A stretch of DNA of 45,367 nt. It comes from an uncultured Bacteroidaceae bacterium. GTDB taxonomy: Bacteria > Bacteroidota > Bacteroidia > Bacteroidales > Bacteroidaceae. Shown piece by piece: positions 233 through 38,961 of this stretch (position 1 is its first letter; each line of letters opens with the position of its first letter). Both the position numbers and the translations under genes were made by a program. The DNA is taken from positions 1-45,367 of the forward strand of contig CAJOLC010000034.1 of NCBI GenBank assembly GCA_905235305.1. The letters are read 5' to 3'. The notes under the pieces were generated by a model that saw nothing but the letters and a program-made list of their open reading frames with translations, did not search any database and was not told the origin of the DNA.

Positions 233-298
233 TTGCAGCATCATGAACCTGCAATTGAATATTCATGAACCTGCAATTGAATATTCATGATGCTGCAA
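233..298. repeat. 22-bp tandem array 1 inside a 15-bp inverted repeat
   Basis: Two identical 22-bp units lie at 241-262 and 263-284. Each contributes to a TGAATATTCA palindrome followed by CATGA. The pair is enclosed by perfect 15-bp inverted arms, TTGCAGCATCATGAA at 233-247 and its reverse complement at 284-298. The short spacer between palindromes reads CCTGCAAT. The period and the palindromic word plus short spacer design match five other arrays in this window, although the word itself is different. Confidence 0.8.
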
Positions 299-302
299 GC
301 AA

Positions 303-360
303 CTCACACTAATGCATCGGCTGTTCCGATGTGGTGAGCGTCCTGAACCTCATGGCTGAG
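303..360. other. Two consecutive hairpins
   Basis: CATCGG (315-320) and CCGATG (326-331) form a stem with a 5-nt loop. It is nested within CTCAC (303-307) and GTGAG (334-338). A second small hairpin, CTCA-TGGC-TGAG, follows at 349-360. With the inverted repeat at 233-298 and the long hairpin at 374-432 this makes an unusually structured 200-bp stretch. It could be a 3' structure of the GH2 transcript or a small RNA; the sequence alone does not decide. Confidence 0.35.
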
Positions 361-373
361 TGGTGGGACAAAC

Positions 374-432
374 AAGGAAGAGCAACGCCTCGTGGAAGCA
401 GAATGTCTGCTGCACGGGCGTTGCTCTTCCTT
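374..432. terminator. Long perfect hairpin downstream of the GH2 gene
   Basis: Arms AAGGAAGAGCAACGCC (374-389) and its exact reverse complement (417-432) form a 16-bp stem. Inside is a second hairpin, AGCAGA-ATG-TCTGCT (397-411). It lies 53 bp beyond the GH2 stop codon on the minus strand, where a terminator or 3' stabilising structure would be expected. Neither side has a good T-run, so a classical intrinsic terminator is not proven. Confidence 0.45.
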
Positions 433-484
433 CGTCGAGAGCGGGAACTCGTTCCCTCCCAGCTATTGTAGCGGGATAGCTCCC

Positions 485-2260: not shown

Positions 2261-2357
2261 AATAGCTATTTACGATTTGTCAAATTGTTGTTTGCGATTA
2301 GTTTGAAGCCTCAGGGGACAAACCTTTCCCTGCCTCTTCTCGCCCCTTTTCATTCTT

Positions 2358-4070: not shown

Positions 4071-4097
4071 CTTTAATTCTTTTTATCTTTTCTCCTA

Positions 4098-4105: not shown

Positions 4106-4216
4106 ATAATAATCCTAATTGTGTGAATCACATTGCGGTATAAAATATCCTTTACTGGCAAAACTTAAGTGATGCTGGATATAGGATTCCCCACTGGCTT
4201 CTTATCATCCTATCTC

Positions 4217-4885: not shown

Positions 4886-4900
4886 TTGCTATGGGATAGA

Positions 4901-16265: not shown

Positions 16266-16397
16266 ACGCGACGCGTCATGTTGCCAAACGCGACGCGTCA
16301 TATTGCCAAACGCGACGTGTCATGTTGCCAAACGCGACGTGTCATGTTGCCAAACGCGACGTGTCATGTTGTCAAACGCGACGTGTCATGTTTTGTG
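16266..16397. repeat. 22-bp tandem array 2, six units
   Basis: Six head-to-tail 22-bp units start at 16266, 16288, 16310, 16332, 16354 and 16376. Each begins ACGCGACG. Units 1-2 contain the perfect palindrome GACGCGTC, and units 3-6 carry GACGTGTC, a C-to-T change at the centre. The spacer is TTGCCAA (TTGTCAA in unit 5), and the last unit decays at its 3' end. It lies between the divergent promoters of the Na/Pi transporter (16167-16174) and leuA (16505-16535), upstream of both. Confidence 0.95.
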
Positions 16398-18065: not shown

Positions 18066-18089
18066 TCTAAATTTTATAAGTACAAAAGA

Positions 18090-19478: not shown

Positions 19479-19482
19479 AGCT

Positions 19483-22710: not shown

Positions 22711-22719
22711 TCGCAAAAC

Positions 22720-22785
22720 ATGGCACGCCGAGTTTGCAAAGATGGCACGCCGAGTTGACCAAGATGGCATGCCGAGTTTTCGAAC
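22720..22785. repeat. 22-bp tandem array 3, three units
   Basis: Units start at 22720, 22742 and 22764. The 15-bp word ATGGCACGCCGAGTT is conserved, with one change making a perfect GGCATGCC palindrome in the third unit. The 7-bp spacers differ: TGCAAAG, GACCAAG and TTCGAAC, and a similar TCGCAAAAC precedes unit 1. It fills nearly all of the gap between the leuB stop and the porin gene. The conserved word with variable spacers shows it is not a simple slippage repeat. Confidence 0.92.
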
Positions 22786-22807
22786 TTAAAATATGACGTT
22801 CGTATTC

Positions 22808-25842: not shown

Positions 25843-25851
25843 TAGGATGCC

Positions 25852-27375
25852 ATGAAGAATCGACCGAAACTCTTTCTTACAGCACTGATAATGGTTGTGC
25901 TGGCTGCCGTTTCCCTTCTGTTGTTGCAGAAGATGCGGCATGATAATTCCTTGCCGACGCATTATACACAGGTGGATGCCTTACCTCGAATCTTCCCCGA
26001 CTATGTTGATGTAACAGTCCCGCCAAACATTGCACCCCTCAACTTCATGGTGGACAGCGTGGAAGATGTTGTTTGCCTTATTGCCAGTCCCGTTGGAGAG
26101 CAGACTTTTGGAGGCGATGCTAACAAGGTGGAAATAAGGGAAAAGGAATGGCACGCCATGCTTGCGTCAGCCAAGGGGCATAGCCTGTTGGTCACTGTCT
26201 TTGCGAAGAGAGACGGCAAGTGGCTTGCCTACAAACCTTTCTCCATATATGTGTCGGAGGATGAAATAGACCCTTATATATCCTATCGTGTATTGCCGCC
26301 GACGTTTGTAGGCTATGATAAACTCGCCATTCGCCAGCGTAACCTTACCAACTTCGAGGAAACAGACATCTACAACAATCGTCAGATAAGTCGCGGGCTG
26401 GAGGGTCAATGCATAAACTGCCATTCTTATCAAAACTACGGAACAAGTAATATGATGTTCCATACCCGTATGCAAAACCCTGGCACTATGATAGTCTACG
26501 ATGGAAAGCTAACCTTCGTGGATCTTAAGGACCAGAGCATGATATCCGCTGCTGCCTATAACTCATGGCATCCCACGCTCCCTATCATCGCTTTCAGCAC
26601 CGACCATACCATGCAGAGCTTCCATACCCGAGACGTCTCGAAGGTTGAGGTGATGGAGTCGGCTAGCGACCTCATTATATACGACGTAAAGCAGAACCGC
26701 GTACAGACTGTCTTGAATGATTCCTCGGAACTGGAGCTCTTTCCTTCATGGAGCCCTGATGGCAAATGGCTCTACTATTGCTCTGCCCACTACGAGTATC
26801 AGGAGAAGTATGAGGATACGGATGAACTGCTTCGCAACTATAAGATGTTGCAGTACAACCTCTACCGCCTTGCCTTCGATGCAGAGTCGATGACATTTGG
26901 TGAGCCGGAACTTATCTATGATGCGCGTAGCAAGAACCGCAGTGCCGTGCAGCCACGTGTGTCGCAGGATGGCAGGTATGTGCTTTTTGCCGAAGGTCCC
27001 TGGGGCCTCTTCCACATTTGGCATACCTCTGCCGAGGTGCAGATGCTTGACCTCCAAACAGGCGAACTCGTTGATGTCAGCCAGCTGAATAGTTCCTTGC
27101 CCGAGAGCTATCCGTCCTTCTCATCGAAAGACCGATGGATACTCTTCGAGAGTCGACGTGATGACGGGAACTATACCAGAACCTATTTTGCTTATTTCGA
27201 CAGACAAGGCAAGGTGCACAAAGCCTTTATGGTGCCAGAAAAAGACCCAGAGTACTTCCGCCTGCTACTACGCAGTTGGAGTCGACCCGAGTTCATGAAG
27301 GAGCCGGTCAGAATCACACCAAGTCAGTTCTACGAGAAGATGCTCACGGAACCCATCAAGGTTTCCAATCACTAA
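25852..27375 (+). CDS. PD40 (TolB-like propeller) protein with one c-type haem motif
   Basis: A 507-residue protein with an N-terminal membrane anchor or signal (residues 6-26), a beta-rich domain (about 40-180), a single CxxCH haem-attachment motif CINCH at 187-191 followed by Met-rich text (MMFHTRMQNPGTM) that could supply the distal ligand, and then PD40/TolB-type propeller blades (PSWSPDGKW, PRVSQDGRY, PSFSSKDRW). Such proteins in Bacteroidales are often labelled cytochrome c biogenesis or TolB-like, without proof. It is probably periplasmic and held at the inner membrane. It is coupled to the DUF6057 gene, 9 bp downstream of its stop. Role unknown; electron transfer or redox sensing are possible. 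Confidence 0.8.
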   Translation: MKNRPKLFLTALIMVVLAAVSLLLLQKMRHDNSLPTHYTQVDALPRIFPDYVDVTVPPNIAPLNFMVDSVEDVVCLIASPVGEQTFGGDANKVEIREKEWHAMLASAKGHSLLVTVFAKRDGKWLAYKPFSIYVSEDEIDPYISYRVLPPTFVGYDKLAIRQRNLTNFEETDIYNNRQISRGLEGQCINCHSYQNYGTSNMMFHTRMQNPGTMIVYDGKLTFVDLKDQSMISAAAYNSWHPTLPIIAFSTDHTMQSFHTRDVSKVEVMESASDLIIYDVKQNRVQTVLNDSSELELFPSWSPDGKWLYYCSAHYEYQEKYEDTDELLRNYKMLQYNLYRLAFDAESMTFGEPELIYDARSKNRSAVQPRVSQDGRYVLFAEGPWGLFHIWHTSAEVQMLDLQTGELVDVSQLNSSLPESYPSFSSKDRWILFESRRDDGNYTRTYFAYFDRQGKVHKAFMVPEKDPEYFRLLLRSWSRPEFMKEPVRITPSQFYEKMLTEPIKVSNH

Positions 27376-27498
27376 CTGACATTGTCGGGCTAAAAATTAA
27401 ACCTGAACAGGTCATTAGACCTATTCCACCTTCCATCTTTCCACTTTCCTTCACACTTCTCCGAACTTTGCGTCAGAGGACACAGCTTAGTGGGTTGT

Positions 27499-27542
27499 TT
27501 GCACATACATGTATATTCAATTGCACATACATGTATGTTCAA
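27499..27542. repeat. 22-bp tandem array 4, two units
   Basis: Two 22-bp units (27499-27520 and 27521-27542) differ by one base. The word TTGCACATACATGTAT contains the perfect palindrome ATACATGTAT, extended to CATACATGTATG in unit 2. The spacer is TTCAATTG-like. The pair is bordered by GTTGTTTG and CAAGCAAC, an imperfect inverted repeat around the whole array. It sits about 180 bp upstream of the xseA -7 box. Confidence 0.85.
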
Positions 27543-27724
27543 GCAACGCACTATGCCATGTTGATGAATGGAGGGTAATATTTAAGAATGCAAATATGAG
27601 GAATCAGCGAAAGATAGGGGAGAGGTGTAGACAAGGTAGGCAAGTCTAATGACCGATTCGGGTTAAAAGAGTCCGATTGCATGAGTTTTCTAAGGATTCA
27701 TGCATTTTTATTGCAAAATATGAT

Positions 27725-27732
27725 TATCTTTG
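27725..27732 (+). promoter_or_regulatory. xseA -7 box
   Basis: TATCTTTG matches TAnnTTTG, 22 bp upstream of the xseA ATG at 27755. No TTTG at the ideal -33 distance. Confidence 0.5.
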
Positions 27733-27754
27733 CATCAAAATAGATGCAAGGACG

Positions 27755-29002
27755 ATGAATGAGGTCTTGACTTTATTTGAGTTGAACAGCCTGGTGCGCG
27801 ATGTCCTCGAAGGAAACTTCGACGATGAGTACTGGGTTACAGGTGAGTTGAGTGACGTCAGCACTCCTGCTTTCGGCGGACACTTCTACGGAGAACTAGT
27901 CCAAAAAGATGAAGAAAGCGACCGCATCGTGGCTAAGGCGCGCATCACTTGCTGGGCTCGCAACTATAATATGATAAGGTTACGCTTCCAGAAGGAAGCA
28001 GGCGAGACGCTTCGCAAGGGTTTGCAGGTGAAGCTGCTGGTCAAGGTTAGCTTTCATGAGCAGTATGGTTATTCACTCAATGTCATCGACATCGACTCCA
28101 CATTTACACTTGGCGACCTCGCAAAAAGGCGCCGCGAGATACTTCTCCAGCTTGAGAAGGACGGCATTCTGCACGACAATCAAAGCCTCCCCTTGCCCCG
28201 TCTGCTCCGACGCATCGCTGTTGTCAGCAGTGCGACTGCTGCCGGATACGGCGACTTCTGCAATCATCTGGAGCAGAACGACTACGGTTTCCACTTCGAC
28301 GTGCAGCTCTTTCCGGCCGTCATGCAAGGTCAGCAGGCACCGGAAAGCATCATCGCCGCCTTGCAGGATGTTGTTTCGGCAGGAACTTTCGACCTTGTCG
28401 CCATCATCCGTGGCGGTGGGGCAAGCAGCGACTTGAGTGACTTCGACAGTTACAAACTGGCTGCCTGCATCGCCATGTACCCTTTGCCCGTGCTGACAGG
28501 CATTGGCCATGAACGCGACGAAACGGTTCTCGACTATGTGGCACACACGCGAGTCAAGACGCCAACTGCCGCTGCCGCCTTCATCATTGAACATCAGGCG
28601 CAGGAAGCTACTATGCTTGACGACTTGTATCAACGCATCACGCACGCAGCCAAAGAGCAGATTCAGCATGAGAAAGGCAGGTTGGAACGCCACGAGGCTC
28701 TCTTGCCGTTGCTCTTTACCAACATGTTTCGCGACTGGCAAGTCAAGCTGACCCTTCTTCATCAAAGGATTGTGACGGCAGTCGACCGACGGATTATGAC
28801 TGAAAAACACGGCCTTCAACTCTTGAAACAACGGCTTGAAGCGCTCGACCCGATGCTCTTGTTGCGCCGAGGCTACAGCATCACGACTTGCAGAGGAAAG
28901 ATTGTCCGAGACATCAAAAGCCTTTCCGAAGGCGAAGTCCTCACAACTCAAACAGAAAAAGGAGAAATATATTCAAAGATAATACTATGCAAGAAAAAAT
29001 GA
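27755..29002 (+). CDS. xseA: Exodeoxyribonuclease VII large subunit
   Basis: A 415-residue cytosolic nuclease subunit acting with XseB on single-stranded DNA. The start at 27755 (MNEVLTLFELNSLV) is taken because the -7 box is at 27725-27732 and the family begins here; an ATG at 27677 precedes the promoter. The N-terminal OB-fold (about 1-100) has the YWVTGELSDVS segment, and the catalytic domain (about 120-310) has RGGGASSDLSDF, GIGHERDETVLDYVA and KTPTAAA. A coiled-coil (about 290-370) precedes RRGYSITT. The stop overlaps the xseB start region. Confidence 0.95.
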   Translation: MNEVLTLFELNSLVRDVLEGNFDDEYWVTGELSDVSTPAFGGHFYGELVQKDEESDRIVAKARITCWARNYNMIRLRFQKEAGETLRKGLQVKLLVKVSFHEQYGYSLNVIDIDSTFTLGDLAKRRREILLQLEKDGILHDNQSLPLPRLLRRIAVVSSATAAGYGDFCNHLEQNDYGFHFDVQLFPAVMQGQQAPESIIAALQDVVSAGTFDLVAIIRGGGASSDLSDFDSYKLAACIAMYPLPVLTGIGHERDETVLDYVAHTRVKTPTAAAAFIIEHQAQEATMLDDLYQRITHAAKEQIQHEKGRLERHEALLPLLFTNMFRDWQVKLTLLHQRIVTAVDRRIMTEKHGLQLLKQRLEALDPMLLLRRGYSITTCRGKIVRDIKSLSEGEVLTTQTEKGEIYSKIILCKKK

Positions 29003-29187
29003 CTTACGAACAGGCTATGCAGAAGCTCGAAGAGATGGCATCGCAAATGGAACAAGGCACGATAAGCATCGATGAGATGTCCGAACGCCTTCGCGAAGCA
29101 CAAAAGTTGATGAAGTATTGTCACGAAAAGCTCTATGAGGCAGAAAAAAACTGCAAATCCTTGCTAAATATCGAGGAAAATCAGTAA
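28987..29187 (+). CDS. xseB: Exodeoxyribonuclease VII small subunit
   Basis: A 66-residue helical partner of XseA, normal in size, with the family core TYEQAMQKLEEMASQME. Two starts are possible: ATG at 28987 (overlapping xseA by 16 bp) or ATG at 28999, whose ATGA is shared with the xseA stop. The second gives the more typical family N-terminus (MTYEQA). Translational coupling to xseA is evident either way. Its TAA stop forms the first bases of the ilvE -7 box. Confidence 0.92.
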   Translation: MQEKMTYEQAMQKLEEMASQMEQGTISIDEMSERLREAQKLMKYCHEKLYEAEKNCKSLLNIEENQ

Positions 29188-29192
29188 CTTTG
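29185..29192 (+). promoter_or_regulatory. -7 box of ilvE
   Basis: TAACTTTG overlaps the xseB stop codon, 26 bp before the ilvE ATG, so ilvE can be transcribed apart from xseAB. The -33 position has only a partial match (TTGC). Confidence 0.5.
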
Positions 29193-29218
29193 CACAAGTT
29201 ACGCAAAACAAAGAAACG

Positions 29219-30244
29219 ATGAAACAGGAAATTGATTGGAGTAACCTCTCCTTTGGTTACATGAAGACAGACTATAATGTGCGTTGTTACTACCGCAACG
29301 GCGCATGGGGGGAAATAGAGGTCAGCAGCGAAGAAACCATTCCCTTGCATATGGCAGCGACGTGCCTTCACTATGGACAGGAAGCTTTCGAAGGACTGAA
29401 GGCCTATCGTTGTCCCGATGGAAAGGTACGCGTGTTCCGCAGTGACGAGAACGCTGCCAGGCTGCAAAGCACTTGCCGAGGCATACTGATGCCTGAGCTT
29501 TCTACGGAGAAATTCAACGAAATGGTGGACAAGGTTGTACGCCTCAATGAACGTTTCATCCCTCCATACGAGAGTGGAGCAACGCTATATATCCGTCCCT
29601 TGCTAATAGGTACGAGTGCTCAGGTTGGCGTTCATCCTGCCAATGAATACCTCTTCCTCATCTTCGTCACACCCGTCGGCCCGTACTTCAAAGGCGGATT
29701 TGCCACGAATCCTTATGTCATTATCCGTGAGTACGACCGCTCTGCCCCTCTTGGCACTGGCATCTATAAGGTGGGCGGCAACTATGCTGCCAGCCTCAGA
29801 GCCAACAAGATGGCGCACGACCTTGGATACAGCTGCGAGTTCTACCTTGATGCGAAGGAGAAGAAGTACATGGATGAATGTGGAGCTGCCAACTTCTTCG
29901 GTATTAAGGACAACACCTATGTTACGCCGAAGAGCACCAGTATCTTGCCAAGCATCACAAACAAGAGTCTGATGCAGCTTGCCATGGACATGGGCATGAA
30001 GGTGGAACGTCGGCAAATCCCAGAGGATGAACTTGCCACATTCGAAGAAGCCGGAGCCTGCGGCACAGCGGCAGTCATCAGTCCAATTGAGCGCATTGAT
30101 GACCTCGATACCAAGCAAAGCTTCATCATCTCCAAGAACGGCGAGCCTGGTCCAATATGTCGAAAGCTCTATGAAAAGCTTCGCGGCATCCAATACGGCA
30201 CCGAACCCGACGAGCATGGCTGGACAAGAGTAGTCATCGAATAA
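29219..30244 (+). CDS. ilvE: Branched-chain amino acid aminotransferase
   Basis: A 341-residue class IV PLP aminotransferase of the longer eukaryote-like type. The PLP lysine is Lys184 in YKVGGNYAAS, the catalytic and substrate regions include LHYGQEAFEGLKAYR and YIRPLLIG, and the C-terminal ACGTAAVISP binds the cofactor phosphate. It carries out the last step of Leu, Ile and Val synthesis, so it complements the leu operon 7 kb upstream. It has its own -7 box and is followed by a bidirectional hairpin. Confidence 0.95.
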   Translation: MKQEIDWSNLSFGYMKTDYNVRCYYRNGAWGEIEVSSEETIPLHMAATCLHYGQEAFEGLKAYRCPDGKVRVFRSDENAARLQSTCRGILMPELSTEKFNEMVDKVVRLNERFIPPYESGATLYIRPLLIGTSAQVGVHPANEYLFLIFVTPVGPYFKGGFATNPYVIIREYDRSAPLGTGIYKVGGNYAASLRANKMAHDLGYSCEFYLDAKEKKYMDECGAANFFGIKDNTYVTPKSTSILPSITNKSLMQLAMDMGMKVERRQIPEDELATFEEAGACGTAAVISPIERIDDLDTKQSFIISKNGEPGPICRKLYEKLRGIQYGTEPDEHGWTRVVIE

Positions 30245-30271
30245 GTAAGAACTTGTTAATTAAGTAGAAAA

Positions 30272-30317
30272 AGAGAAGAGTGCTGCCTGAGATTTGTTCT
30301 CGAGCAGCATCTTCTTT
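30272..30317. terminator. Bidirectional terminator between ilvE and ribH
   Basis: An inverted repeat built on TGCTGC (30281-30286) and GCAGCA (30304-30309) has an inner GAG/CTC. It extends outward through AAGAGAAGA and TCTTCTTT with one bulged G. The A-rich left flank serves the minus-strand ribH transcript and the T-rich right flank the ilvE transcript. Confidence 0.65.
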
Positions 30318-30343
30318 ATGATTATGGGTTCAGGCGGCAGTTT

Positions 30344-30763
30344 CTACTCCCATCCCTTCACCATCTTGATGGCTGTGACTGCGCACTCGTCGCCTTTGTT
30401 TCCAAGCATACCGCCACTTCGTTGCTCGGCCTGTTCCAGTGTGTTACAAGTGAGCAAGCCATAGATGACTGGTACTTTGCCTTCGCGGTTCAGGTCGGCA
30501 AGGCCTTGTGTTACGCCTTGACAGATGTAGTCGAAGTGAGGAGTGTCGCCTTTTATGACGCAACCGATGGCAATGACTGCATCGACGAGACCTGAGCTGG
30601 CAAATCGTGCTGAGCCATATATCAGCTCAAAACTGCCGGGAACAGTCTTGACGGAGATATTCTCCTCCTTTACTCCATGCTTGACGAGAGTGGTGAAAGC
30701 TCCTTCGAGCAAAGCACTTGTTATCTTTTCGTTCCATTCGCTGACAACGATACCTACTCTCAT
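30344..30763 (-). CDS. ribH: 6,7-dimethyl-8-ribityllumazine synthase, N-terminus frameshifted
   Basis: The 139-residue open frame carries the lumazine synthase fold that condenses 5-amino-6-ribitylaminouracil with dihydroxybutanone phosphate in riboflavin synthesis: [32 protein letters not shown] with the catalytic His, and [14 protein letters not shown]. It starts [11 protein letters not shown], about 20 residues later than usual. The missing leader peptide is present just upstream in another frame (30764-30822). Internal initiation at this ATG would still give a near-complete fold. It lies downstream of the TPR gene on the same strand. Confidence 0.93.
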
Positions 30764-30822
30764 GTTGCATCGGGCACAGAATTGATGTCGTAGTCGCTGA
30801 GATTATGTAGGGAAGAAGCCAT
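30764..30822 (-). other. Out-of-frame N-terminal segment of ribH
   Basis: From an ATG at 30822 the minus strand encodes [19 protein letters not shown] followed by ACA TGA. This is the typical Bacteroidetes RibH N-terminus (xxYHNLSxYDxNSVPxA). It runs into a stop exactly where the main frame's ATG begins. A loss of 1 or 4 bases near 30764 would restore one continuous protein; four fits the family better, as two residues normally stand between this Ala and the Met. Confidence 0.8.
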
Positions 30823-30878
30823 CTGTGGAGCTCAAATTTCAGATTTCATAATACAGGTTCTGATTATGAAGTCAGGGA

Positions 30879-31553
30879 TTATTGCTGGGCAGCTTCGATG
30901 TACTTATCGATTTCGTAGTAGAGACTACTCTGCTGGTACTTGTTCTTGATTTGATTGAAGCAATCTATGGCCTTGTCCTTCTGACCGAGAGCAATGAACA
31001 GCTGTCCGGCTTGCAGAAGACATGTGGGGCTGACAGTGTTGTTGTCGGCTTCCTTGGCTGCTTTAAGGAGCAATTCTGCTGCCTTTTCGTTCTCGCCGAG
31101 CTCAGCGTAGCAGTTGCCTTTCAGTGCAGTAGCGGCTGGACTGATCATGGCATCTCCGCAGCCATCATACTTGTTCAGCATGTCGATTGCCTCTTGATAT
31201 TTCTCGGTGGCTGCATAGCACTTGGCTGCATAGAGGCAAGCAATGTTGCCGGCTTTCGTGTTACCATATTGGTTGATGACAGCGAGGAAGCCCAAGTTTG
31301 TGCCGTCGCCGTTCAGCGCTTTGTCATAGTTGCCGTCCAGGAAAGCCTGTTCTGCGGGGAAGATGCTCTCGTTGGCGTGATTGTTGCGAGGTGTGATGTA
31401 GAACTGATGAATGAGTAAAACGATGATGATGATGGCAAGAACGCCGCCAATGCCCCAAAGGATTGCTTTCTTGTTTTTCTCATAGAATGAGATAGAGGTG
31501 GAGAGTTTCTCGTCGAACTCATTTGCCTGTTTCGTTACTTTTTTCTTAGACAT
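30879..31553 (-). CDS. TPR-containing membrane-anchored protein
   Basis: A 224-residue protein with a lysine-rich cytosolic start (MSKKKVTKQANEFDEKL), one membrane helix (about 30-50) and a periplasmic-type run of tetratricopeptide repeats (about 70-220: FLAVINQYGNTKAGNIACLYAAKCY, YQEAIDML, NEKAAELLLKAAKEA, KDKAIDCFNQIKNKY). The start at 31553 is favoured because the -7 box is at 31587-31594. Such proteins resemble YfgM, which helps envelope protein folding, but that link is only by architecture. ribH lies about 56 bp downstream; recF is divergent. Confidence 0.85.
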   Translation of the reverse strand: MSKKKVTKQANEFDEKLSTSISFYEKNKKAILWGIGGVLAIIIIVLLIHQFYITPRNNHANESIFPAEQAFLDGNYDKALNGDGTNLGFLAVINQYGNTKAGNIACLYAAKCYAATEKYQEAIDMLNKYDGCGDAMISPAATALKGNCYAELGENEKAAELLLKAAKEADNNTVSPTCLLQAGQLFIALGQKDKAIDCFNQIKNKYQQSSLYYEIDKYIEAAQQ

Positions 31554-31586
31554 TTTGTTTTTTGTTATTAATTTCAAATTTGCCTG

Positions 31587-31594
31587 CAAAGATA
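31587..31594 (-). promoter_or_regulatory. -7 box of the TPR-ribH unit
   Basis: The minus strand reads TATCTTTG, 33 bp before the TPR protein start at 31553. No convincing -33 TTTG. Confidence 0.5.
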
Positions 31595-31720
31595 CAAAAA
31601 AATGAAGAATGAGAGATGAAGGATGAGGAATTATTTTTGCTGAAAGCTGAAAATAGGTGATTTTCGGGCTCAAAAGCAGTAATTGTGTATCGCGAGTTGT
31701 GATTTGTGAATTAATTTCTG

Positions 31721-31728
31721 TACCTTTG
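31721..31728 (+). promoter_or_regulatory. -7 box of recF
   Basis: TACCTTTG, 9 bp ahead of the recF ATG at 31738. The message would start at or a few bases before the start codon, so recF may be leaderless or nearly so. A GTTG at 31696-31699 is a weak -33 candidate. Confidence 0.5.
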
Positions 31729-31737
31729 TGGTCGAAT

Positions 31738-32835
31738 ATGAGACTTACCGACCTTACAATATTTAATTATAAGAACATCGCGGAAGCAGAGTTGTGCTTC
31801 TCGTCGAAGTTAAATTGCTTCATTGGCAACAACGGAGAGGGCAAGACGAATGTGCTCGACGCCATCCATTTCCTCAGTTTCTGCCGCAGCTACAACAGCA
31901 GTGTCGACTTGCTGTGTGTCAAGCACGGACAGGAGTTCATGTCTTTGCAAGGGCTTTACGAACACGAGGATGGCTCGAGGGAAGACATCCATATCGGCCT
32001 GAAGACGGGACAAAAGAAGGTGGTTCGCAGGGGAAAGAAGGCATATCGACGTATCTCGGAGCACATCGGACTGGTTCCGCTCGTGATGGTCTCTCCAGCC
32101 GACCAGATTCTTGTCAATGGAGGAAGCGACGAGCGTCGTCGGTTCATCGACATGGTTATCTGTCAGTACGATGCTGCCTACACGGAGTCTCTGCTCCGCT
32201 ATAACAAGGCCTTGCTGCAAAGGAATGCTATGCTGAAGCAGGAAGACGAGGCAGACCCGGAGGTTTTTCTTGTCTTCGAGGAGCAGATGGCCAGAGAGGG
32301 CGACTACATTTTCAGGAAACGCAGTGAGTTCATATCGGAGCTGATACCTATCTTCCAGCAATTCCATAACCAGATTTCGCAGGGACACGAGAAGGTGGAA
32401 CTGCGCTATGTGTCTCAGTTGCAAAGAGGTCCGTTGCTGGAGCAGCTGACGAAGGACCGCTTTAAAGACAAGGCTGTGGGCTATTCCTTGCATGGAATCC
32501 ACAAGGATGACCTCGAGATGTTGCAAGGCGGATACCTTGTCCGAAGGGAAGGTTCGCAGGGACAGAGCAAGACTTTCTTCATCGCCTTGAAGCTCGCCCA
32601 GTTTGATTTCCTTCGGAGAACCGGCAGCCGGACCACACCTTTACTGCTCTTGGACGATATCTTCGACAAGTTGGATGCGGAGAGGGTTGAGCAGATCGTG
32701 AAGCTCGTCAGCGGTGATCGCTTCGGACAGATATTCATAACGGACACGAATCGTGACCATCTGGATGCAATCCTCTCCTCAATGCAGGGCGACAATAAGA
32801 TATTCTTCGTAAAGAATGGAGTGATAAGCTCATGA
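31738..32835 (+). CDS. recF: DNA replication and repair protein RecF
   Basis: A 365-residue SMC-like ATPase that loads RecA at gaps together with RecO and RecR. Walker A is GNNGEGKT (about 29-36), the signature motif lies in EGSQGQSKTFFIALKLAQ, and Walker B is LLLLDDIFDKLD. The start at 31738 (MRLTDLTIFNYKN) matches the family; an ATG at 31657 precedes the promoter. Its stop shares ATGA with the next gene, so the two are coupled. Confidence 0.95.
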   Translation: MRLTDLTIFNYKNIAEAELCFSSKLNCFIGNNGEGKTNVLDAIHFLSFCRSYNSSVDLLCVKHGQEFMSLQGLYEHEDGSREDIHIGLKTGQKKVVRRGKKAYRRISEHIGLVPLVMVSPADQILVNGGSDERRRFIDMVICQYDAAYTESLLRYNKALLQRNAMLKQEDEADPEVFLVFEEQMAREGDYIFRKRSEFISELIPIFQQFHNQISQGHEKVELRYVSQLQRGPLLEQLTKDRFKDKAVGYSLHGIHKDDLEMLQGGYLVRREGSQGQSKTFFIALKLAQFDFLRRTGSRTTPLLLLDDIFDKLDAERVEQIVKLVSGDRFGQIFITDTNRDHLDAILSSMQGDNKIFFVKNGVISS

Positions 32836-33122
32836 TACACAACAAGTCGCAACAGTTACGTGATGCTTTGCTTGCATTCCTGAGGCAAGCAGGACTCGAG
32901 ACGCCTCTGCTGGAATATCGCATCACAGAAGCTTGGCCGGAGGTGATGGGAACGACTATTTCCCGCTACACCAAGCAGGTGTTCGTGCGCGATGGAAAGC
33001 TGCATGTAAAGCTCTCGAGCGCTCCACTTCGTCAGAACCTGATGATGGAGCACAAGCGTATTGCCCAGAAACTCAATGAGCACGTGGGTTCTTACGTCAT
33101 CAGCGACGTCTCTTTCTTCTGA
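32832..33122 (+). CDS. DUF721 (DciA-like) protein
   Basis: A 96-residue basic protein of the DUF721 family, which includes the DciA helicase loader factor: ITEAWPEVMGTTISRYTKQVFVRDGKLHVKLSSAPLRQNL is the family core (about 30-70). It overlaps recF by 4 bp (ATGA), consistent with a role tied to replication or repair. Only the KH-like core is present, and whether it interacts with DnaB is not known. Confidence 0.85.
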   Translation: MIHNKSQQLRDALLAFLRQAGLETPLLEYRITEAWPEVMGTTISRYTKQVFVRDGKLHVKLSSAPLRQNLMMEHKRIAQKLNEHVGSYVISDVSFF

Positions 33123-33130
33123 TTCCGACT

Positions 33131-33154
33131 CGAGGCGTGGCCTCGTTTCTCTTT
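33131..33154 (+). terminator. Intrinsic terminator of recF-DUF721
   Basis: CGAGGC-GTG-GCCTCG (33131-33145) followed by a T-rich run TTTCTCTTTT, 8 bp after the DUF721 stop. Compact stem of 6 GC-rich pairs. Confidence 0.55.
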
Positions 33155-33242
33155 TCCCCAGGCGAAGGATTCCGCTTTTCTTTATAAAAGTTCCCGAGAC
33201 AAATTGTAAGCCGAAACGCGTGTTTTGCTATCAGAATGCCAG

Positions 33243-33271
33243 TTTTTGCACACTGCCTAAAGTGTGAAAAA
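33243..33271. other. Symmetric hairpin before repeat array 5
   Basis: TTTTT-g-CACACT, a GCCTAA loop, then AGTGTG-AAAAA: an almost perfect inverted repeat with T and A tracts at its outer ends. It could terminate transcription from the minus side or mark the edge of the adjoining array. Confidence 0.4.
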
Positions 33272-33276
33272 AGGGC

Positions 33277-33386
33277 ACGTTTCACGTCCTTTCGGCCAAC
33301 TTCTCGTGAGGCGTTCGCAAAGATCACGTGTCAACTTTCCAAAGATCTCGTGTCCCGTCCGGAATCTTCTCTTGTGGATTCAGTGG
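33277..33386. repeat. 22-bp array 5, five degenerate units
   Basis: Units of 22 bp start at 33277, 33299, 33321, 33343 and 33365. In register, each holds a variant of [AT]CNTC[AT]CGTG, for example AGATCACGTGTC and AGATCTCGTGTC; unit 3 has the perfect palindrome CACGTG. The other roughly 10 bases differ widely, but most units end in a CCAA/GCAA/GGAA spacer. The fixed period despite strong divergence suggests that spacing, not sequence, is under selection, or that the array is old. Confidence 0.7.
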
Positions 33387-33732
33387 ACATCATGCGTTGA
33401 AAAGTGTGCAATCTCAGCAGAAAACGGCTGATTTTGCCATGTTTGGATAGCAATCTGTAGAGTGAAGTTTGAAGACGGGATACAGGGCGTCGAAGCTAAC
33501 TTCTTGTGGAACAGTATATTCTGAAATATCGTTCGATTTAAGGCCATATTTTTCCTCAGAGGTCAAAAAACATGGAGTGGGGCATTTCGAGCGATTCTGG
33601 CGCGTCTGTCCAAAATTGGTGTGTAAGCAAAAGTGGCGTAATTCTGACAATCTGTCAATCTCATATCGTGCGAGTTATGCCGTTTGGGGAATAATTCTCA
33701 GCCTTCAACTTTCAATTCTTGATTAATTGTTG
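33387..33732. other. Gene-free stretch before the his operon
   Basis: Nothing supported. Two short overlapping open frames on opposite strands (33469-33726 plus and 33414-33650 minus) lack domains and are probably chance. Confidence 0.5.
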
Positions 33733-33740
33733 TATCTTTG
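33733..33740 (+). promoter_or_regulatory. -7 box of the his operon
   Basis: TATCTTTG (TAnnTTTG), 47 bp before the hisG start. The leader is about 40 nt and contains no run of His codons, so classical attenuation is unlikely. Confidence 0.55.
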
Positions 33741-33787
33741 CACCCGCAAAAAGATAATCGTTAACAGCAAATACGCAAATAAACAAG

Positions 33788-34639
33788 ATGTTAAGAATCG
33801 CAGTACAATCGAAGGGACGTCTCTTCGAAGATACAATGGCACTGCTTGCAGAAGCAGGTATCAAGGTGAGCAGCAGCAAGAGAACTCTCCTGGTTCAAAG
33901 TAGCAACTTCCCAATCGAGGTGTTATATCTCCGCGACGACGACATCCCGCAAAGCGTGGCAAGCGGAGTCGCCGACCTCGGAATCGTAGGTCAAAACGAG
34001 TTCGACGAAAGGGCAGAGGATGCGAGGATAGTGCGGCCACTTGGCTTCAGCAAGTGTCGCCTCTCGCTGGCCGTGCCGAAAGGTTGCGGCTATTATGGCT
34101 TGAAATGGTTCGAAGGAAAGAAGATTGCCACCTCATATCCCAACATCCTGCGCCGTTTCCTCGAGGAGAATCGTCTCGTTGCAGACGTGCACGTCATCAC
34201 CGGCAGCGTAGAAATCAGCCCGGGCATCGGCTTGGCAGATGCCATCTTCGACATCGTCAGCAGCGGCTCGACGCTGGTCAGCAACAACCTTGTCGAGGTG
34301 GAGACAGTGATGAAAAGCGAGGCCATCCTGATTGCCAACAAAGACCTCAATGAAGAGAAGCAGTCTGTGCTGGACGAACTGCTGTTCCGCATAGAAGCCG
34401 TCAAAGCAGCCGAGGACAAGAAATACGTCCTGATGAACGTCCCGACAGACAAGTTGAAGGAGATAGTCGACGTGTTGCCAGGCGTGAAGAGTCCCACGGT
34501 GATGCCCCTTGCAACTGAAGGATGGAGCAGTGTTCACACGGTCATCGAGGAAAAACGTTTCTGGGAAATCATCCGTGAGCTGAAAGGACTCGGCGCAGAA
34601 GGCATCTTGGTCGTACCCATCGAAAAGATGATACCGTAA
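33788..34639 (+). CDS. hisG: ATP phosphoribosyltransferase, long form
   Basis: A 283-residue enzyme joining ATP and PRPP, the first step in histidine synthesis. It is the long hexameric type: a bilobal catalytic domain (1-210) with VQSKGRLFEDTM, the PRPP loop VSSGSTLVSNNLVE, and a C-terminal ACT-like regulatory domain (about 215-283) that binds histidine for feedback control. No HisZ is therefore needed. It leads the hisGDCB order; hisD starts 74 bp on, after a small CCTCTC/GAGAGG hairpin. Confidence 0.95.
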   Translation: MLRIAVQSKGRLFEDTMALLAEAGIKVSSSKRTLLVQSSNFPIEVLYLRDDDIPQSVASGVADLGIVGQNEFDERAEDARIVRPLGFSKCRLSLAVPKGCGYYGLKWFEGKKIATSYPNILRRFLEENRLVADVHVITGSVEISPGIGLADAIFDIVSSGSTLVSNNLVEVETVMKSEAILIANKDLNEEKQSVLDELLFRIEAVKAAEDKKYVLMNVPTDKLKEIVDVLPGVKSPTVMPLATEGWSSVHTVIEEKRFWEIIRELKGLGAEGILVVPIEKMIP

Positions 34640-34713
34640 GTCTTCACTTCAGAACTTCCCTCTCGCCTCACAAGAGAGGAGAATATTATTCAACTTTCAA
34701 CGCCCATTATTTA

Positions 34714-35994
34714 ATGAAAACATACGTCTATCCAGCCAAGGAGGAACTCGACGCCTTGCTGAAACGGCCGGTTCGAGACGCCTCGGAACTGAATGCCACA
34801 GTCGCTGCGGTACTGCAGGACATAAAGCAACGCGGCGATGATGCCGTCAGGGAATACGAGGAACGTTTCGACAAAGTCCGTCTCGAGACACTTGCCGTCA
34901 CCGAAGCCGAAATGGCAGAGGCAGAAAAACTTGTCGGCGAAGAACTCAAGGAAGCCATTCGCATCGCCCATCGGAACATCGAACGCTTCCATGCGGCACA
35001 GAAATTCCAGGGTGAACACATCAAAGTAACCGAGGGAGTGGAGTGCTGGCAAAAGGCCGTGGCAATAGAAAAGGTAGGTCTCTACATACCAGGCGGCACG
35101 GCACCTCTCTTCAGCACAGTGCTGATGCTTGCCACGCCTGCACAGATAGCAGGCTGTAAAGACATCATTCTCTGCACCCCGCCTGCCCGGGATGGAAGCG
35201 TCAACCCTGCCATCCTCATAGCAGCACGCACGGCTGGCGTCAGCAGAATCTACAAGATTGGTGGCGTCCAGGCTATCGGCGCGATGGCTTACGGCACCGA
35301 AAGCGTCCCGAAGGTCTACAAGATTTTTGGTCCCGGCAATCAGTATGTCATGTGTGCCAAGCAGCAAGTGAGCCTGCATGACGTCGCCATCGACATGCCG
35401 GCTGGACCAAGTGAAGTGGAGGTCTTGGCAGACGAGACGAGTGATGTCGCATTTGTTGCTGCCGACCTCCTCAGCCAGGCAGAGCACGGCGTGGACAGCC
35501 AGGTGCTTCTCCTTTGCAAAAGTGTCGAGACAGCAAAGCAGGTGGAAGCCGAGGTGGAACGTCAGCTCTCACTTCTGCCAAGGAAGGACATCGCGGCTCA
35601 AGCCCTGGAACATAGCAAGGCGATAGTCGTCCACAATGATGAAGAGATGATGGAAATCACCAATCGCTATGCGCCCGAACACCTCATCATCGAGACTTCG
35701 AACTATATGGACCTCGCACAAAAGGTTATAAATGCCGGCAGTGTATTCCTCGGCCCACTCACCCCCGAGAGTGCCGGCGACTATGCCAGCGGCACAAATC
35801 ACACGCTGCCTACCAACGGCTATGCCGTGGCATACAGTGGCGTCAACCTCGACAGCTTCTGCCGCAAGATAACTTTTCAGCACATTCAGCCCGAAGGCAT
35901 TCGTTCCATCGGCAGAGCCGTGGAGTTAATGGCCGAGGCAGAAGGGCTGGAAGCACACAAGAATGCAATGACTTTGAGAAAAGAAAGCCTATGA
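34714..35994 (+). CDS. hisD: Histidinol dehydrogenase
   Basis: A 426-residue zinc- and NAD-dependent enzyme oxidising histidinol to histidine in two steps. Signatures include [51 protein letters not shown] with catalytic Glu-His, and the zinc-site AEHL-like YAPEHLIIE. Length is normal. Its TGA stop lies within the ATGA that starts hisC. Confidence 0.96.
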
Positions 35995-37028
35995 AGACCC
36001 TGGAATCATTAGTTCGTCCTAACATCTGGGCGCTCGAACCTTACAGCTGTGCACGCGACGAATTCAAAGGCATGACTGCTCATGTCTTTCTTGATGCAAA
36101 CGAGAATCCCTTTAATGATCCCATCAACCGATATCCCGACCCGCTGCAAGAGAAACTGAAAGAGCGGCTTGCTCCGCTGAAGGGAGTGCGCCCCTCGCAG
36201 ATGTTCTTGGGTAATGGCAGTGATGAAGCCATCGACCTCGTCTATCGTATATTCTGCAACCCGGGCGAAGACAATGTAGTCGCCATCGCACCAACCTATG
36301 GAATGTATAAGGTTTGTGCCGACATCAATAACGTCGAGTACAGAAGTGTGCCGTTGACCGAAGGGTGGCAACTCGACATTCAAGGTTTGATGAATGCCGT
36401 CGATACACATACAAAGGTGCTGTGGATTTGCTCTCCCAACAACCCAACTGGCAACGATTTCCCTCGCGAAACCATACATGAACTGCTTGTCTCCTTTGAA
36501 GGTATCGTGGTGATTGACGAGGCATATTCAGACTTCTCGACAAATCAGCCCTTTCGCAACCTGCTCGACAACTACCCGAATCTCGTCGTCCTTAACACGT
36601 TCAGCAAAGCTTGGGCGTCGGCAGCCATCCGTCTCGGCATGGCATTTGCAAGCGAAGAAATCATCGGGTTGTTTAACAAGGTGAAATATCCCTATAATGT
36701 CAACCTGCTGACTCAGGAGAAAGCCATGAGCTTGCTTGCAGACCTCGCCACCATCGATGGCTGGCTTGCGCAGATTCGTCGTGAGCGCGAACACGTCTTG
36801 CCGGCTTTGGCCGAACTGCCAATCGTGTTGAAAGTGTTCCCGACCGATGCCAACTTCGTGCTTGTCAAGGTGACCGATGCCAACAAGATCTATCATTATC
36901 TCATAGAACAAGGCATCGTAGTGCGCAACAGGACACGTGTTCAGCTATGCAAAGACTGCTTGCGCATCACGATAGGCACACGTCAGGAAAACAACGAACT
37001 GCTCGGAGCTTTGAGATTCTTCAAGTAG
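35991..37028 (+). CDS. hisC: Histidinol-phosphate aminotransferase
   Basis: A 345-residue fold-type I PLP aminotransferase. The PLP lysine is in [15 protein letters not shown], the PLP-binding Asn/Asp/Tyr lie in CSPNNPTGN and VIDEAYSDF, and the C-terminal arginine in [11 protein letters not shown] binds substrate. It overlaps hisD by 4 bp (ATGA) and precedes hisB by 45 bp. Confidence 0.95.
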
Positions 37029-37073
37029 GTCTCCGCAATCTTCTTCAGTGAAAACAATTGAATACACTGCCAA

Positions 37074-38138
37074 ATGAAACAGATACTTTTCATCGATCGA
37101 GACGGAACAATACTTCGGGAGCCGTCGGACGAGCAGATAGACAGCTTCGAGAAATTCAGCTTCGTGCCCGGAGCCATCAGTGCCTTGCGCTTCCTTCGCC
37201 AGCATACCGACTTCCTTTTTGTCATGGTCAGCAATCAGGACGGACTTGGCACTGACAGTTATCCCGAGGAAACTTTCTGGCCGACACACAACCTAATGCT
37301 CGACATCCTGAAAGGTGAGGGCATCTGCTTCGACGCAATTCATATCGACAGAAGTTTCCCGCAGGACAATTTGCCTACTCGCAAGCCCGGAACAGCCATG
37401 CTGACTGACTACATGACTGGTGACTACGACCTGGCTGGCAGCTTTGTCATCGGCGACAGACAAACGGATGCCAAGCTCGCGGAAAACCTCGGTTGCCGCA
37501 GCTTCATTCTTTCCGATGACATGGACTGGCAAAAGATTGCGGAACTTCTTTTCGCCGGAGAACGGACTTCTGCAGTCAAGCGAACCACAAAGGAAACAGA
37601 TATCGAGGTGCGCATCAACTTGGATGGCAACGGAAAAGCAGACATTCAGACTGGACTGGGCTTTTTCGACCACATGCTCGAGCAGATTGCCAAGCATGGT
37701 ATGACTGACCTCTTTGTCCGTTGCAACGGCGACCTCCAGGTGGATGAACATCATACGATCGAGGATGTGGCACTTGCCATGGGCGAATGTATCCGTAAAG
37801 CTTTGGGCGACAAACGCGGTATAGAACGCTACGGCTATTGTCTCCCGATGGATGACTGCCTGTGCCAAGTGGCACTTGATTTCGGCGGAAGGCCTTGGTT
37901 GGTGTGGGATGCCGAGTTCCGTCGCGAGAAAGTCGGCGAACTGCCTACCGAGATGTTTCTGCACTTCTTCAAGAGTTTGTCCGACAGCGCCGCAATGAAT
38001 CTCAACATCAAAGCAGAGGGTATCAACGAACACCACAAAATAGAGGGCATCTTCAAAGCGTTTGCAAGGAGCTTGCGAATGGCTGTCCGACGAGACATCA
38101 CACATTTCCAGCTCCCATCAAGCAAGGGAGTGTTGTAA
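37074..38138 (+). CDS. hisB: Bifunctional histidinol-phosphatase / imidazoleglycerol-phosphate dehydratase
   Basis: A 354-residue fusion. The N-terminal HAD phosphatase (1-160) has FIDRDGT with Asp8 and Asp10, [10 protein letters not shown] and IGDRQTD. The C-terminal dehydratase (about 175-354) has [15 protein letters not shown] and the two manganese motifs DEHHTIED (224-231) and NEHHKIEG. The zinc cysteines of the E. coli phosphatase (CxH..CxC before RKP) are missing here; the stretch reads [16 protein letters not shown], as I recall for other Bacteroidetes. Fusion explains why one gene covers two histidine steps. Confidence 0.95.
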
Positions 38139-38228
38139 TCGGGAGAACAGTCGTTTAGGAATTATACCAGCGATGACAGCTGAAATGTCTAAACCACAAA
38201 ATAAAGAACTACCAATCGACCAATTTTG

Positions 38229-38843
38229 ATGTTCAATAACAGATACTCTTCTTCGCTGCTTGAGAAAGCTGTAACAGAAATCAACCGACTGCCTGGCATT
38301 GGCAGCAAGACTGCTCTTCGCTTGGCTCTCCATCTGCTTCGACAGGACGAAGAGAGGGTAGCGGCGTTGGCCGAGAGCTTGGTTGAAATGCGTCGAGGAG
38401 TGCATTACTGCAATGTCTGCTACAACATCTGCGATGATGAACGATGCGAAATCTGCAGTAATCCGACCAGGGACAGCAGTCTCGTCTGCGTTGTCGAGAA
38501 TGTTCAGGATGTGATGGCTATCGAGAATACGATGCAGTACAGAGGTCTCTATCATGTCCTTGGCGGCGTCATCAGCCCGATGGATGGTATCGGACCGAGC
38601 GATTTGCAGATAGAAAGTCTCGTGGAACGAGTAAGAAAAGGAGGCGTGGATGAAGTCATCCTTGCTCTTAGCCCTACAATGGAAGGCGATACAACCAATT
38701 ATTATATCTATAGGAAACTGGAAGAAACGGGTGTGAAGGTGACAGTAATTGCCCGAGGCATCGCGCAAAACGATGAACTGCAATACACTGATGAAGTGAC
38801 CTTGGGCAGGGCTCTTGCAGGAAGAATCCCGTTTGGTGCGTAA
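38229..38843 (+). CDS. recR: Recombination mediator RecR
   Basis: A 204-residue DNA-repair protein. Order: helix-hairpin-helix ([17 protein letters not shown], about 17-33), C4 zinc finger (CNVCYN...CEIC, about 58-80), Toprim domain ([16 protein letters not shown], about 85-100) and a C-terminal Walker-B-like segment. The ATG at 38229 is the natural start. A TTG codon directly precedes it. It acts with RecF, also in this window. The gene's stop codon is followed at once by repeat array 6. Confidence 0.95.
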
Positions 38844-38961
38844 AATACCTTAACCTATCTGCTCAAATACCTTAAGGTAATTGGCAAACTTAACACGTTA
38901 AATTGCTCAACTTAACACGTTAAAATGACAAACTTAACACGTTAACTTTTCAAACTTCACC
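38843..38961. repeat. 22-bp array 6 with two different palindromic words
   Basis: Five 22-bp units begin at 38843, 38865, 38887, 38909 and 38931; a sixth (from 38953) breaks off at the ATG of the next gene. Units 1-2 share AAATACCTTAA, and unit 2 has the perfect palindrome TACCTTAAGGTA. Units 3-5 share AACTTAACACGTTAA, a near-perfect palindrome. Spacers are CTGCTC, TTGGCA, TTGCTC, ATGACA and TTTTCA. The array fills the entire recR-membrane protein gap. Two unrelated words in one register is the clearest evidence that the period is the conserved property. Confidence 0.92.

Follow-up and report, generated by a model that had tools for sequence, protein, structure and literature searches.

Intergenic arrays with a constant 22-bp period and varying words in some rumen-type Bacteroidales: putative phased binding sites at gene ends

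Closest described repeat systems

REP elements are dispersed, intergenic and palindromic repeats with species-specific words and a bias to gene 3' ends. The arrays analysed here resemble REP/BIME elements and their RAYT (TnpA-REP) system in these features, as they are intergenic and biased to gene 3' ends both in the source genome of the window (the whole analysed stretch of 45,367 nt) and in G102, a sister genome of another species. They differ by a fixed 22-bp tandem register occupied by unlike words. Plasmid iterons are direct Rep-binding repeats of ~17–22 bp; here the likeness lies in gapless runs of direct repeats, each spanning some two helical turns (in iterons bound by an initiator), whereas the arrays occur in a chromosomal-type setting, at ~110 per Mb and with many words. 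A plasmid search with array 6 (see below) and a search of viral contigs with three exact array patterns gave no match, and the window arrays lie among housekeeping-type genes; a phage or plasmid origin was rejected on these grounds. The MerR-like BldC of Streptomyces reportedly binds head-to-tail to direct repeats of ~10 bp without dyads. The parallel would be cooperative multimers on repeated sites, whereas the array units are 22 bp long and carry dyads. LAGLIDADG endonucleases have 22-bp sites, hence a further likeness, which was set aside upon zero matches to PF14528 and PF00961 in the source genome (88% complete).

Within Bacteroidales, the accessible part of PMC4596501 describes the BrickBuilt MITE of Porphyromonas gingivalis as a 23-nt unit (consensus AGAYCATARTATCCTCTCRTRTG) in 1 to 22.8 copies, with one word family, leader and tail, and IS5-like TIRs. 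As far as this description reaches, BrickBuilt shares with the arrays the taxonomic order, intergenic short tandem repeats and species restriction. Membership was rejected, as the arrays are set apart by period 22 (none at 23 in the source genome or G102 at the score used) and by differing words. The same part of that paper mentions 22-nt tandem direct repeats in P. gingivalis W83, which by description resemble the arrays in unit length and order and may be a distant member of the class. Among the matches listed in the open-access literature no title names 22-bp arrays in Bacteroidales, and the accessible part of PMC5771137 holds nothing on a 22-bp repeat.

REP end tags are given as GTAG/CGTC in the accessible part of PMC3733652. 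The source genome yielded one Y1_Tnp match, with GGGGCGATGCCCC and TGGCTTCCAGCCA palindromes beside the Y1 transposase gene; the nearest array (959–1041 of stretch L016) is ~700 bp away, past another gene at 1061–1537. A RAYT/REP system was rejected because the sole Y1 transposase found in the 88% complete genome is flanked by these other hairpins and not by array palindromes.

Six arrays in the window and the 22-bp period

A gapless lag-22 scan of the window (score at least 12) returned exactly six arrays, confirming all six loci of the original prediction and their period of exactly 22 bp.

Array 1: 233–298, no strand assigned; three units with core CATG and halves TTGCAGCAT / TTGAATATT / TTGCAGGTT; variant of the dispersed T family.
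Array 2: 16266–16397, no strand assigned; six units ACGCGACG[C/T]GTCATGTTGCCAA with core CGCG/CGTG; flanked by a Na/Pi cotransporter gene and a leuA-like gene, which are divergent.
Array 3: 22716–22785, no strand assigned; three units with core CACG/CATG; fills the intergenic space that separates leuB from a porin-like gene.
Array 4: 27499–27542, no strand assigned; T element of two units.
Array 4, outer 22-bp slots: 27477–27564, no strand assigned; AGGACACAGCTTAGTGGGTTGT before and GCAACGCACTATGCCATGTTGA after, roughly inverted to one another.
Array 5: 33277–33386, no strand assigned; composite of unlike words in one register, cores CACG, CGTG, CGTG and CGTG.
Array 6: 38843–38961, no strand assigned; composite after a recR-like gene, with a TACCTTAAGGTA slot followed by three TTAACACGTTAA slots.

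TRF lists five of the six; array 5 is absent from TRF and was recovered by the gapless scan. An Rfam search of the window at the gathering score returned only a tRNA (tRNA-Gly by ARAGORN), and no array was matched. The initial impression of a different word at every locus was not borne out: words form dispersed families, with the array 4 word recurring (see below) and the array 1 word found at several loci of the source genome.

The spectrum of gapless tandem arrays with periods 11–60 was recorded over 585 kb of non-overlapping source stretches. Period 22 accounts for 64 arrays and its harmonic 44 for 24, and no other period has more than one; the corresponding numbers for G102 are 42, 18 and at most two. 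Array density is ~110 per Mb in both genomes. A smaller scan of 445,367 bp of the source genome (lag scan, score at least 18, ORF-masked versus intergenic) placed 47 period-22 arrays in intergenic and two in ORF-masked DNA. The harmonic 44 gave 17 intergenic arrays, and none of the remaining periods from 11 to 60 gave more than one. Three copies of the source DNA shuffled within 50-base blocks held no lag-22 array. The sharp intergenic 22-bp peak that had been anticipated, with zero in shuffles, is thus evident in the spectra of both genomes and common to near relatives. In 20 further genomes sampled from the family no clear peak emerges (three arrays at lag 22, two at lag 21, two at lag 54), which counts against the binding reading. 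Arrays of constant 22-base length and varying word are found in some rumen-type Bacteroidales, and the class is larger than first noted from the single window. A sub-period filter removed low-complexity arrays from the spectra and from the dyad, register, orthologous-gap, palindrome-arm and gene-position counts, and was left out of the window scan at score at least 12 and the crude-ORF scan.

Gene calls were made in-house, from crude ORFs in the early scan and hexamer-scored ORFs later; 11 period-22 arrays appeared coding in the early scan because its ORFs were crude. Inside called genes lie 0 of 66 arrays in the source genome and 1 of 44 in G102. Frequent places are right behind stop codons and in convergent gaps: in co-directional gaps the array is nearer the upstream stop in 28/36 (source) and 17/22 (G102) cases, and an array is present in 15/29 (source) and 8/16 (G102) convergent gaps. 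Divergent gaps are depleted in the source genome (p 0.019), with no depletion in G102 (9/28, p 1).

Many units are pseudo-palindromes on C-R-Y-G with a second dyad 11 bp off. At least eight matching pairs were found in 21 of 49 source arrays versus 4.4% of shuffled units, a count that includes T copies, which are not independent. The proposed palindromic words centred on C-[AG]-[TC]-G are hence recovered in their dyad symmetry and cores, but the palindromes are regularly imperfect. Their alignment on one face of the helix holds only approximately, with ~34 degrees of drift per unit (22 bp are 2.1 turns of B-DNA). Arrays also reach past their repeats, and unlike words there keep the 22-bp register: the C-R-Y-G core occurs in the same phase in 90 of 624 slots beyond the repeated part versus 1.2% (107 arrays, those without an in-phase core left out). 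Therefore, unlike words share a single register. This test replaced a strict palindrome-pair test, in which pairs of unlike words fell at multiples of 22 in 7/9 cases in G103 (a further sister genome of another species), 4/5 in relatives and only 2/11 in the source genome. Two source stretches overlap others (L184 with L008 over 4.5 kb, L189 with L013 over 5.7 kb), so that a few non-T arrays are double-counted in the register test, the palindrome-pair and palindrome-arm counts and the N-type half-site count; the overlaps hold no T copy, and the 585-kb spectrum and gene-position counts use non-overlapping source stretches.

The T family and orthologous gaps

T is a dispersed family, normally of three units (26 of the 28 source copies examined), which has both near-invariant contact-like positions and hypervariable ones. 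The word pattern of array 4 has 41 forward and 40 reverse matches in the source genome and none in 100 other genomes of the family. In the G103 half-sites, the TTGCA and TACA positions carry 1.93–2.00 bits and positions 6–7, where ten dinucleotides occur, no more than 0.34 and 0.41 bits, for stretches which, like most T stretches of G102, were retrieved with patterns fixing part of the word. The outer five bases read TTGAA/TTGCA in the source genome, TTGCA in G103 and mostly TTATA in G102, a shift observed for one family in three genomes. Plain inter-locus copying would not give the diversity of positions 6–7 in G103 next to uniform outer bases. The 28 source arrays, by contrast, vary little: 14 are distinct in half keys and there are four half types, a uniformity consistent with recent inter-locus copying. 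Many T copies share GGGTTGT/ACAACCC-like outer ends. A MITE would be marked by terminal inverted repeats, target-site duplication and empty sites in relatives; many T copies have outer ends inverted to one another, and some orthologous gaps are without T. The P family (CCGCRYGCGG) comprises 18 arrays in the first G102 sample.

Orthologous gaps were compared between species, part of the stretches having been picked for carrying T (L184–L196 in the source genome, L164–L183 in G103, L241–L260 in G102). From G103 to the source genome, five of seven gaps hold T and two another 22-bp array; from G103 to G102, six of seven hold T and one another 22-bp array. From G102 to the source genome, two of four hold T and two are empty, and in the reverse direction two of ten hold T, five other arrays, and three are empty. 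Several gaps hence hold an array in one species and are empty in another, and the T loci not shared between the source genome and G102 count against a binding function. The expected change of word at the same gap under a constant period is seen between species; the array 3 gap holds three units of a different word in G102 (stretch L028). Spread by a mobile mechanism, as also suggested at the outset, is not the whole story, T often being shared at orthologous gaps, while the empty gaps speak in its favour.

Phased binding sites and competing readings

With a probability of roughly 0.5, we regard the arrays as putative phased dsDNA binding sites at gene ends, which a sequence-specific protein, dimeric or polymerising, or a few related proteins would recognise. 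The dimer-binding scaffold of the original prediction is still the best reading in view of the 22-bp peak and the dyad-symmetric words; no binding protein was identified, and the presence of seven HU-HIG family matches in the source genome does not discriminate. The in-register cores beyond the repeats, the conserved contact-like T positions, the T loci common to species, the shift in outer bases, the missing strand preference of T and the location near stop codons also speak for it; the stem-like covariation of T in G103 (below), the uniform source copies and the missing depletion of divergent gaps in G102 speak against it. The protein would bind each 22-bp pseudo-palindrome as a dimer, with adjacent dimers packing along the array, and would set the geometry through a dyad every 11 bp and contacts at C-R-Y-G and the CAA/TTG junction; putative contact words in T are TACATGTA and TTGCA. 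Bases between the contacts could drift freely, and a lineage shift in protein specificity would change the contacted bases together at all its sites. Because arrays prefer transcription ends, the likeliest role would be architectural, namely insulation between adjacent transcription units, a block to read-through or an anchor for the nucleoid. Such roles have been proposed for REP/BIME elements.

It is unlikely that the arrays work instead through folding of one strand, with units 1 and 3 pairing to give a bidirectional terminator, a stabiliser of mRNA 3' ends or a DNA cruciform. In favour, folding energies of the listed T copies, 20-bp flanks included, range from −27.9 to −60.7 kcal/mol, and gene ends are favoured. 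In G103, R1 equals L3 in 67% of 18 copies versus 16% expected, with 16 doubly changed R1/L3 cells versus 8.1 shuffled, a stem-like covariation; in the source genome the match is between L1 and R3, at 81% of 26 copies where 27% is expected, and at 67% when the 12 distinct arrays are counted. Still, the strongest long-range match varies by species (R1=L3 in G103, L1=R3 in the source genome, R1=R2 in G102), local hairpins anti-covary, and the T loop unit is conserved as much as the stem units. Moreover, there is no strand preference, the sense strand folding better in 12/20 source and 6/12 G103 co-directional copies, and the four arrays within 22600–39200 contain none of the 20 terminator-like sites listed in that interval. 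As a general function the RNA hairpin was rejected: T in G103 seemed persuasive, but the matches in the source genome and G102 differ and strand bias is missing.

Selfish or MITE/REP-like dispersed repeats, whose units are gained and lost by slippage and serve no host function, are likewise a doubtful explanation. High-copy lineage-specific families such as T and P, the nearly exclusive intergenic location, gaps that are empty in one species but not in another, and the uniform source T copies are in line with it. A single period is not given by slippage alone, however, and many T loci are shared between species, with contact-like positions kept and, in G103, positions 6–7 diverse. The sole Y1 transposase found has hairpins of its own, and the searches of viral contigs (three exact patterns) and plasmids (one array) were empty. 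Conventional operator clusters, in which several unrelated transcription factors share a spacing by coincidence, would accommodate several word families in one genome and the divergent promoter gap of array 2, but are very improbable given one 22-bp register across unlike words within single arrays, ~110 arrays per Mb in two genomes and a bias to stop codons rather than starts. Chance, assembly artefact or simple slippage minisatellites have a negligible probability despite the fragmentation of array-dense genomes (89 contigs and 88% completeness for the source; L028 and L029 records from uncultured isolates), as arrays occupy orthologous gaps in independent assemblies of different species and the period spectra of independent genomes, with no array in shuffled DNA and next to none at adjacent periods, refute them.

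Returning to protein-bound arrays, a bolder and rather speculative extension is a chromatin-like addressing by geometry in Bacteroidales, in which a polymerising protein family would read in-register pseudo-palindromic slots of 22 bp at gene ends, its specificity turning over by lineage together with dozens to hundreds of sites, and adjacent half-sites, actively kept unlike, would provide direction or a barcode for each array. Dispersed bacterial repeats are usually defined by sequence, whereas here length and register are conserved while words vary by locus and species; one family has dozens of copies per genome with the same altered outer bases. If a protein stands behind the arrays, these chromosomes would have an abundant organiser that has gone unrecognised, and its specificity shift could be tested directly on the three T dialects (source, G102, G103).

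Adjacent half-sites are identical in 6 of 392 cases. This near-absence is not predicted by a plain homodimer, counts against the binding reading and needs a mechanism. A general intolerance of perfect palindromes was rejected, as palindromes with arms of at least 8 outside arrays exceed a first-order model in the source genome (9 versus 1.4) and G102 (5 versus 1.2), but not in G103 (0 versus 1.2). Inside arrays, one such palindrome was found in the source genome, one in G102 and three in G103; the ceiling on perfect palindromes therefore belongs to the arrays in the source genome and G102.

Period of the intergenic arrays

The original prediction placed six arrays with a 22-bp period in the window, and all were recovered in place with a period of exactly 22 bp:

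233–298: 22-bp array
16266–16397: 22-bp array (array 2), in a divergent gap
22716–22785: 22-bp array, downstream of leuB
27499–27542: 22-bp array
33277–33386: 22-bp array
38843–38961: 22-bp array

A gapless self-match scan at lags of 11–60 was applied to a first sample of the window's genome (the window and twenty 20-kb stretches, 445,367 bp). At lag 22 it returned 47 intergenic arrays and 2 that were ORF-masked, at the harmonic lag of 44 it returned 17, and each remaining lag gave at most one intergenic array; three block-shuffled copies gave none. The sample was then enlarged by seven stretches picked irrespective of arrays.

Table. Arrays by lag (sample; lag 22; lag 44; each remaining lag)
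Window's genome, 585,367 bp; 64; 24; ≤1
Sister genome G102 (the genome of L028), 380 kb; 42; 18; ≤2
13 near relatives, 206,557 bp around leuB; 13; 8; ≤2
67 more distant relatives, 1.14 Mb; 15; 12; ≤7
Five same-genus genomes, 395 kb sampled; 12; 6; ≤3

It had been proposed that a period distribution lacking a 22-bp peak would refute the claim of a shared period; as the lag spectra do peak at 22 in the window's genome and its near relatives, the claim stands there. The 12 same-genus arrays are not all palindromic, and no clear lag-22 peak was seen in 328 kb from 20 other genomes of the family (3 arrays at 22, ≤2 elsewhere). Separately, TRF identified period 7 as a second common, shorter period in the window and stretches L007–L026 of its genome (24 intergenic arrays).

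Unit anatomy and asymmetric half-sites

Units from 43 arrays outside the dispersed T family (a few counted twice) read roughly C-M-A-A-M-N-N-R-A-[C-R-Y-G]-T-Y-N-N-K-T-T-K-G, the core itself being demanded by the alignment, with A at positions 3 and 9 as the strongest columns outside it. A second dyad lies 11 bp from the core, at TTTGCAAA or CAATTG junctions. Slots adjoining the repeated part, beyond the matched repeat, carried an in-phase C-R-Y-G core in 90/624 cases versus 1.2% at other phases, although these slots do not count as independent cases and probably include some diverged copies. Smaller peaks, at +5 and −5 (plus, 27 counts; minus, 32 counts), came mostly from the window's genome. 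In some arrays, e.g. window 33277–33386 and L179 555–646, every slot holds a different word. The 22-bp period also occurs with other cores, in several families of the window's genome (CAAGGTAATAGTATTC..., GGCGGCCGCC..., CCCTATAGGG...) and in distant relatives (AAAAGGTGACCTTTT). The 22-bp arrays at L047 8835–8935 and L063 9715–9795, from two relatives at greater distance, have AAAAGGTNACCTTT words in common; their dyads are odd-centred, and no C-R-Y-G dyad core is present.

T copies comprise three units in 26/28 cases in the window's genome, 17/20 in the sister-species genome G103 and 26/28 in G102. The G103 half-site is TTGCA-NN-TACA, with 1.93–2.00 bits at positions 1–5 and 8–11 and 0.34 and 0.41 bits at positions 6–7; the loci were retrieved with a pattern fixing part of the conserved positions, and the alignment agrees across all three units. 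T halves are exclusively TTGAACA, TTGCACA, TTGAATA or TTGAATG in the window's genome and chiefly TTATACA, TTATAGA or TTAAATG in G102. The window genome's T pattern had no match in 100 other family genomes, and T-like arrays (≤2 mismatches) were present in 9/13 leuB relatives. With free outer bases, the T pattern gave 84 forward matches in G104 (the genome of L030) and 87 in G102.

Perfect symmetry of T, expected from composition at 16–28%, was found at the core in 0/84 (window's genome), 1/61 (G103) and 0/82 (G102) units, and at the junction in 0/56, 1/41 and 0/54. After removal of duplicate arrays, identical adjacent half-sites numbered 0/70, 2/102 and 0/101, and 4/119 in P, a G102 family unrelated to T, against within-array permutation means of 12.6, 14.2, 19.8 and 24.9. 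Part of this asymmetry is accounted for by units having been duplicated directly; the window's genome has only 5 unit types. The cleanest case is G103 (26 unit types, 1 homotypic), where re-pairing of L and R half-sites across arrays gave a mean of 9.0 (P 0.0007). Perfect palindromes with arms of at least 8 are near-absent within arrays of the window's genome and G102 but not outside them; G103 has 3 within arrays and 0 outside. N-type units are centred on CACG or CGTG in 161/195 cases, and these form the majority core in 43/50 N-type arrays (a few arrays counted twice in both). The P family, abundant in G102 (L209–L223), consists of arrays of CCGCRYGCGG whose junctions are CAA..TTG and whose halves vary (AACG/ATCC/ATTT/ATCG/ATCT); it was not among the arrays listed for the window's genome.

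Position relative to genes and turnover of words

By hexamer-scored gene calls, 0/66 arrays of the window's genome and 1/44 of G102 lie within genes.

Table. Gaps of at least 90 bp with an array; p against share of gap bases (window's genome; G102)
Convergent; 15/29, enriched, p 0.0035; 8/16, p 0.13, not significant
Co-directional; 36/128; 22/67
Co-directional, array closer to the upstream stop; 28/36; 17/22
Divergent; 6/42, depleted, p 0.019; 9/28, no depletion, p 1

The window's leucine biosynthesis cluster, leuA-like to leuB (16563–22710), has an array at each end (16266, 22716).

Downstream of leuB, the window carries three GGCACGCCGAG units, G102 three GGCACGTTAAG units and L027 a mixed set, and L029 has no array. 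Arrays also closely follow leuB in L038, L078 and L090; most remaining relatives lack one at that place. In the gap following the PD40 gene, arrays of the window, L028, L029 and L036 differ in word, L031 has yet another, and in L027 four slots in phase, their words unlike one another, were read by eye and left unflagged by the scan; none was found in L032, L033, L034, L035, L038, L039 or L104. The leuB and PD40 gaps therefore bear out the proposed change of word at constant period, in that site and period can outlast the word; nonetheless, empty gaps are common. Among orthologous gaps, the window's genome and G103 had arrays in both for 4, in the former only for 3, in G103 only for 1 and in neither for 16; with G102 the counts were 3, 2, 3 and 21.

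Table. State of the orthologous gap where the first genome has T; T matches are inflated because some compared stretches were chosen for T
G103 to window's genome; 5/7 T, 2/7 other array
G103 to G102; 6/7 T, 1/7 other array
Window's genome to G103; 5/6 T, 1/6 other array
G102 to G103; 6/8 T, 2/8 empty
G102 to window's genome; 2/4 T, 2/4 empty
Window's genome to G102; 2/10 T, 5/10 other array, 3/10 empty

Candidate roles and known systems

We give roughly even odds (about 0.5) to the arrays being double-stranded DNA sites for a putative protein whose dimers would pack every 22 bp, because contact-like conservation, the fixed register, the lack of any strand bias and the lineage-wide shift of outer bases fit such binding. 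A selfish, MITE- or REP-like dispersed repeat without host function would account for the high, lineage-specific copy number, the uniform T copies of the window's genome and the gaps left empty in some relatives, and is judged unlikely; a MITE origin of the arrays may apply. Action as a folded hairpin is likewise improbable: covariation in T of G103 speaks for it, but support is inconsistent in the window's genome and G102.

If dimers do occupy the arrays, the bias towards gene ends suggests that they could serve in insulation, as a roadblock or in nucleoid anchoring. No trans-acting gene was identified among the candidates checked in the window's genome: no LAGLIDADG protein was found in this 88% complete genome, the 7 HU-HIG matches are not informative on array binding, and the Y1 transposase is unrelated to the arrays.

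The arrays depart in a tested feature from each of REP/RAYT, BrickBuilt, iterons and LAGLIDADG sites. Among the titles listed by searches of an open-access library, none described phased arrays with a 22-bp period in Bacteroidales. Section 7 of one paper mentions 22-nt tandem repeats in P. gingivalis, there with no positions given (PMC4596501), which may be distant relatives of the present arrays. The single Y1 (RAYT-like) transposase ORF detected in the window's genome (1743–2162, within L016 1680–2360 on contig C9) is adjoined by repeated GGGGCGATGCCCC and TGGCTTCCAGCCA palindromes, and together they probably form a separate small REP-like system.
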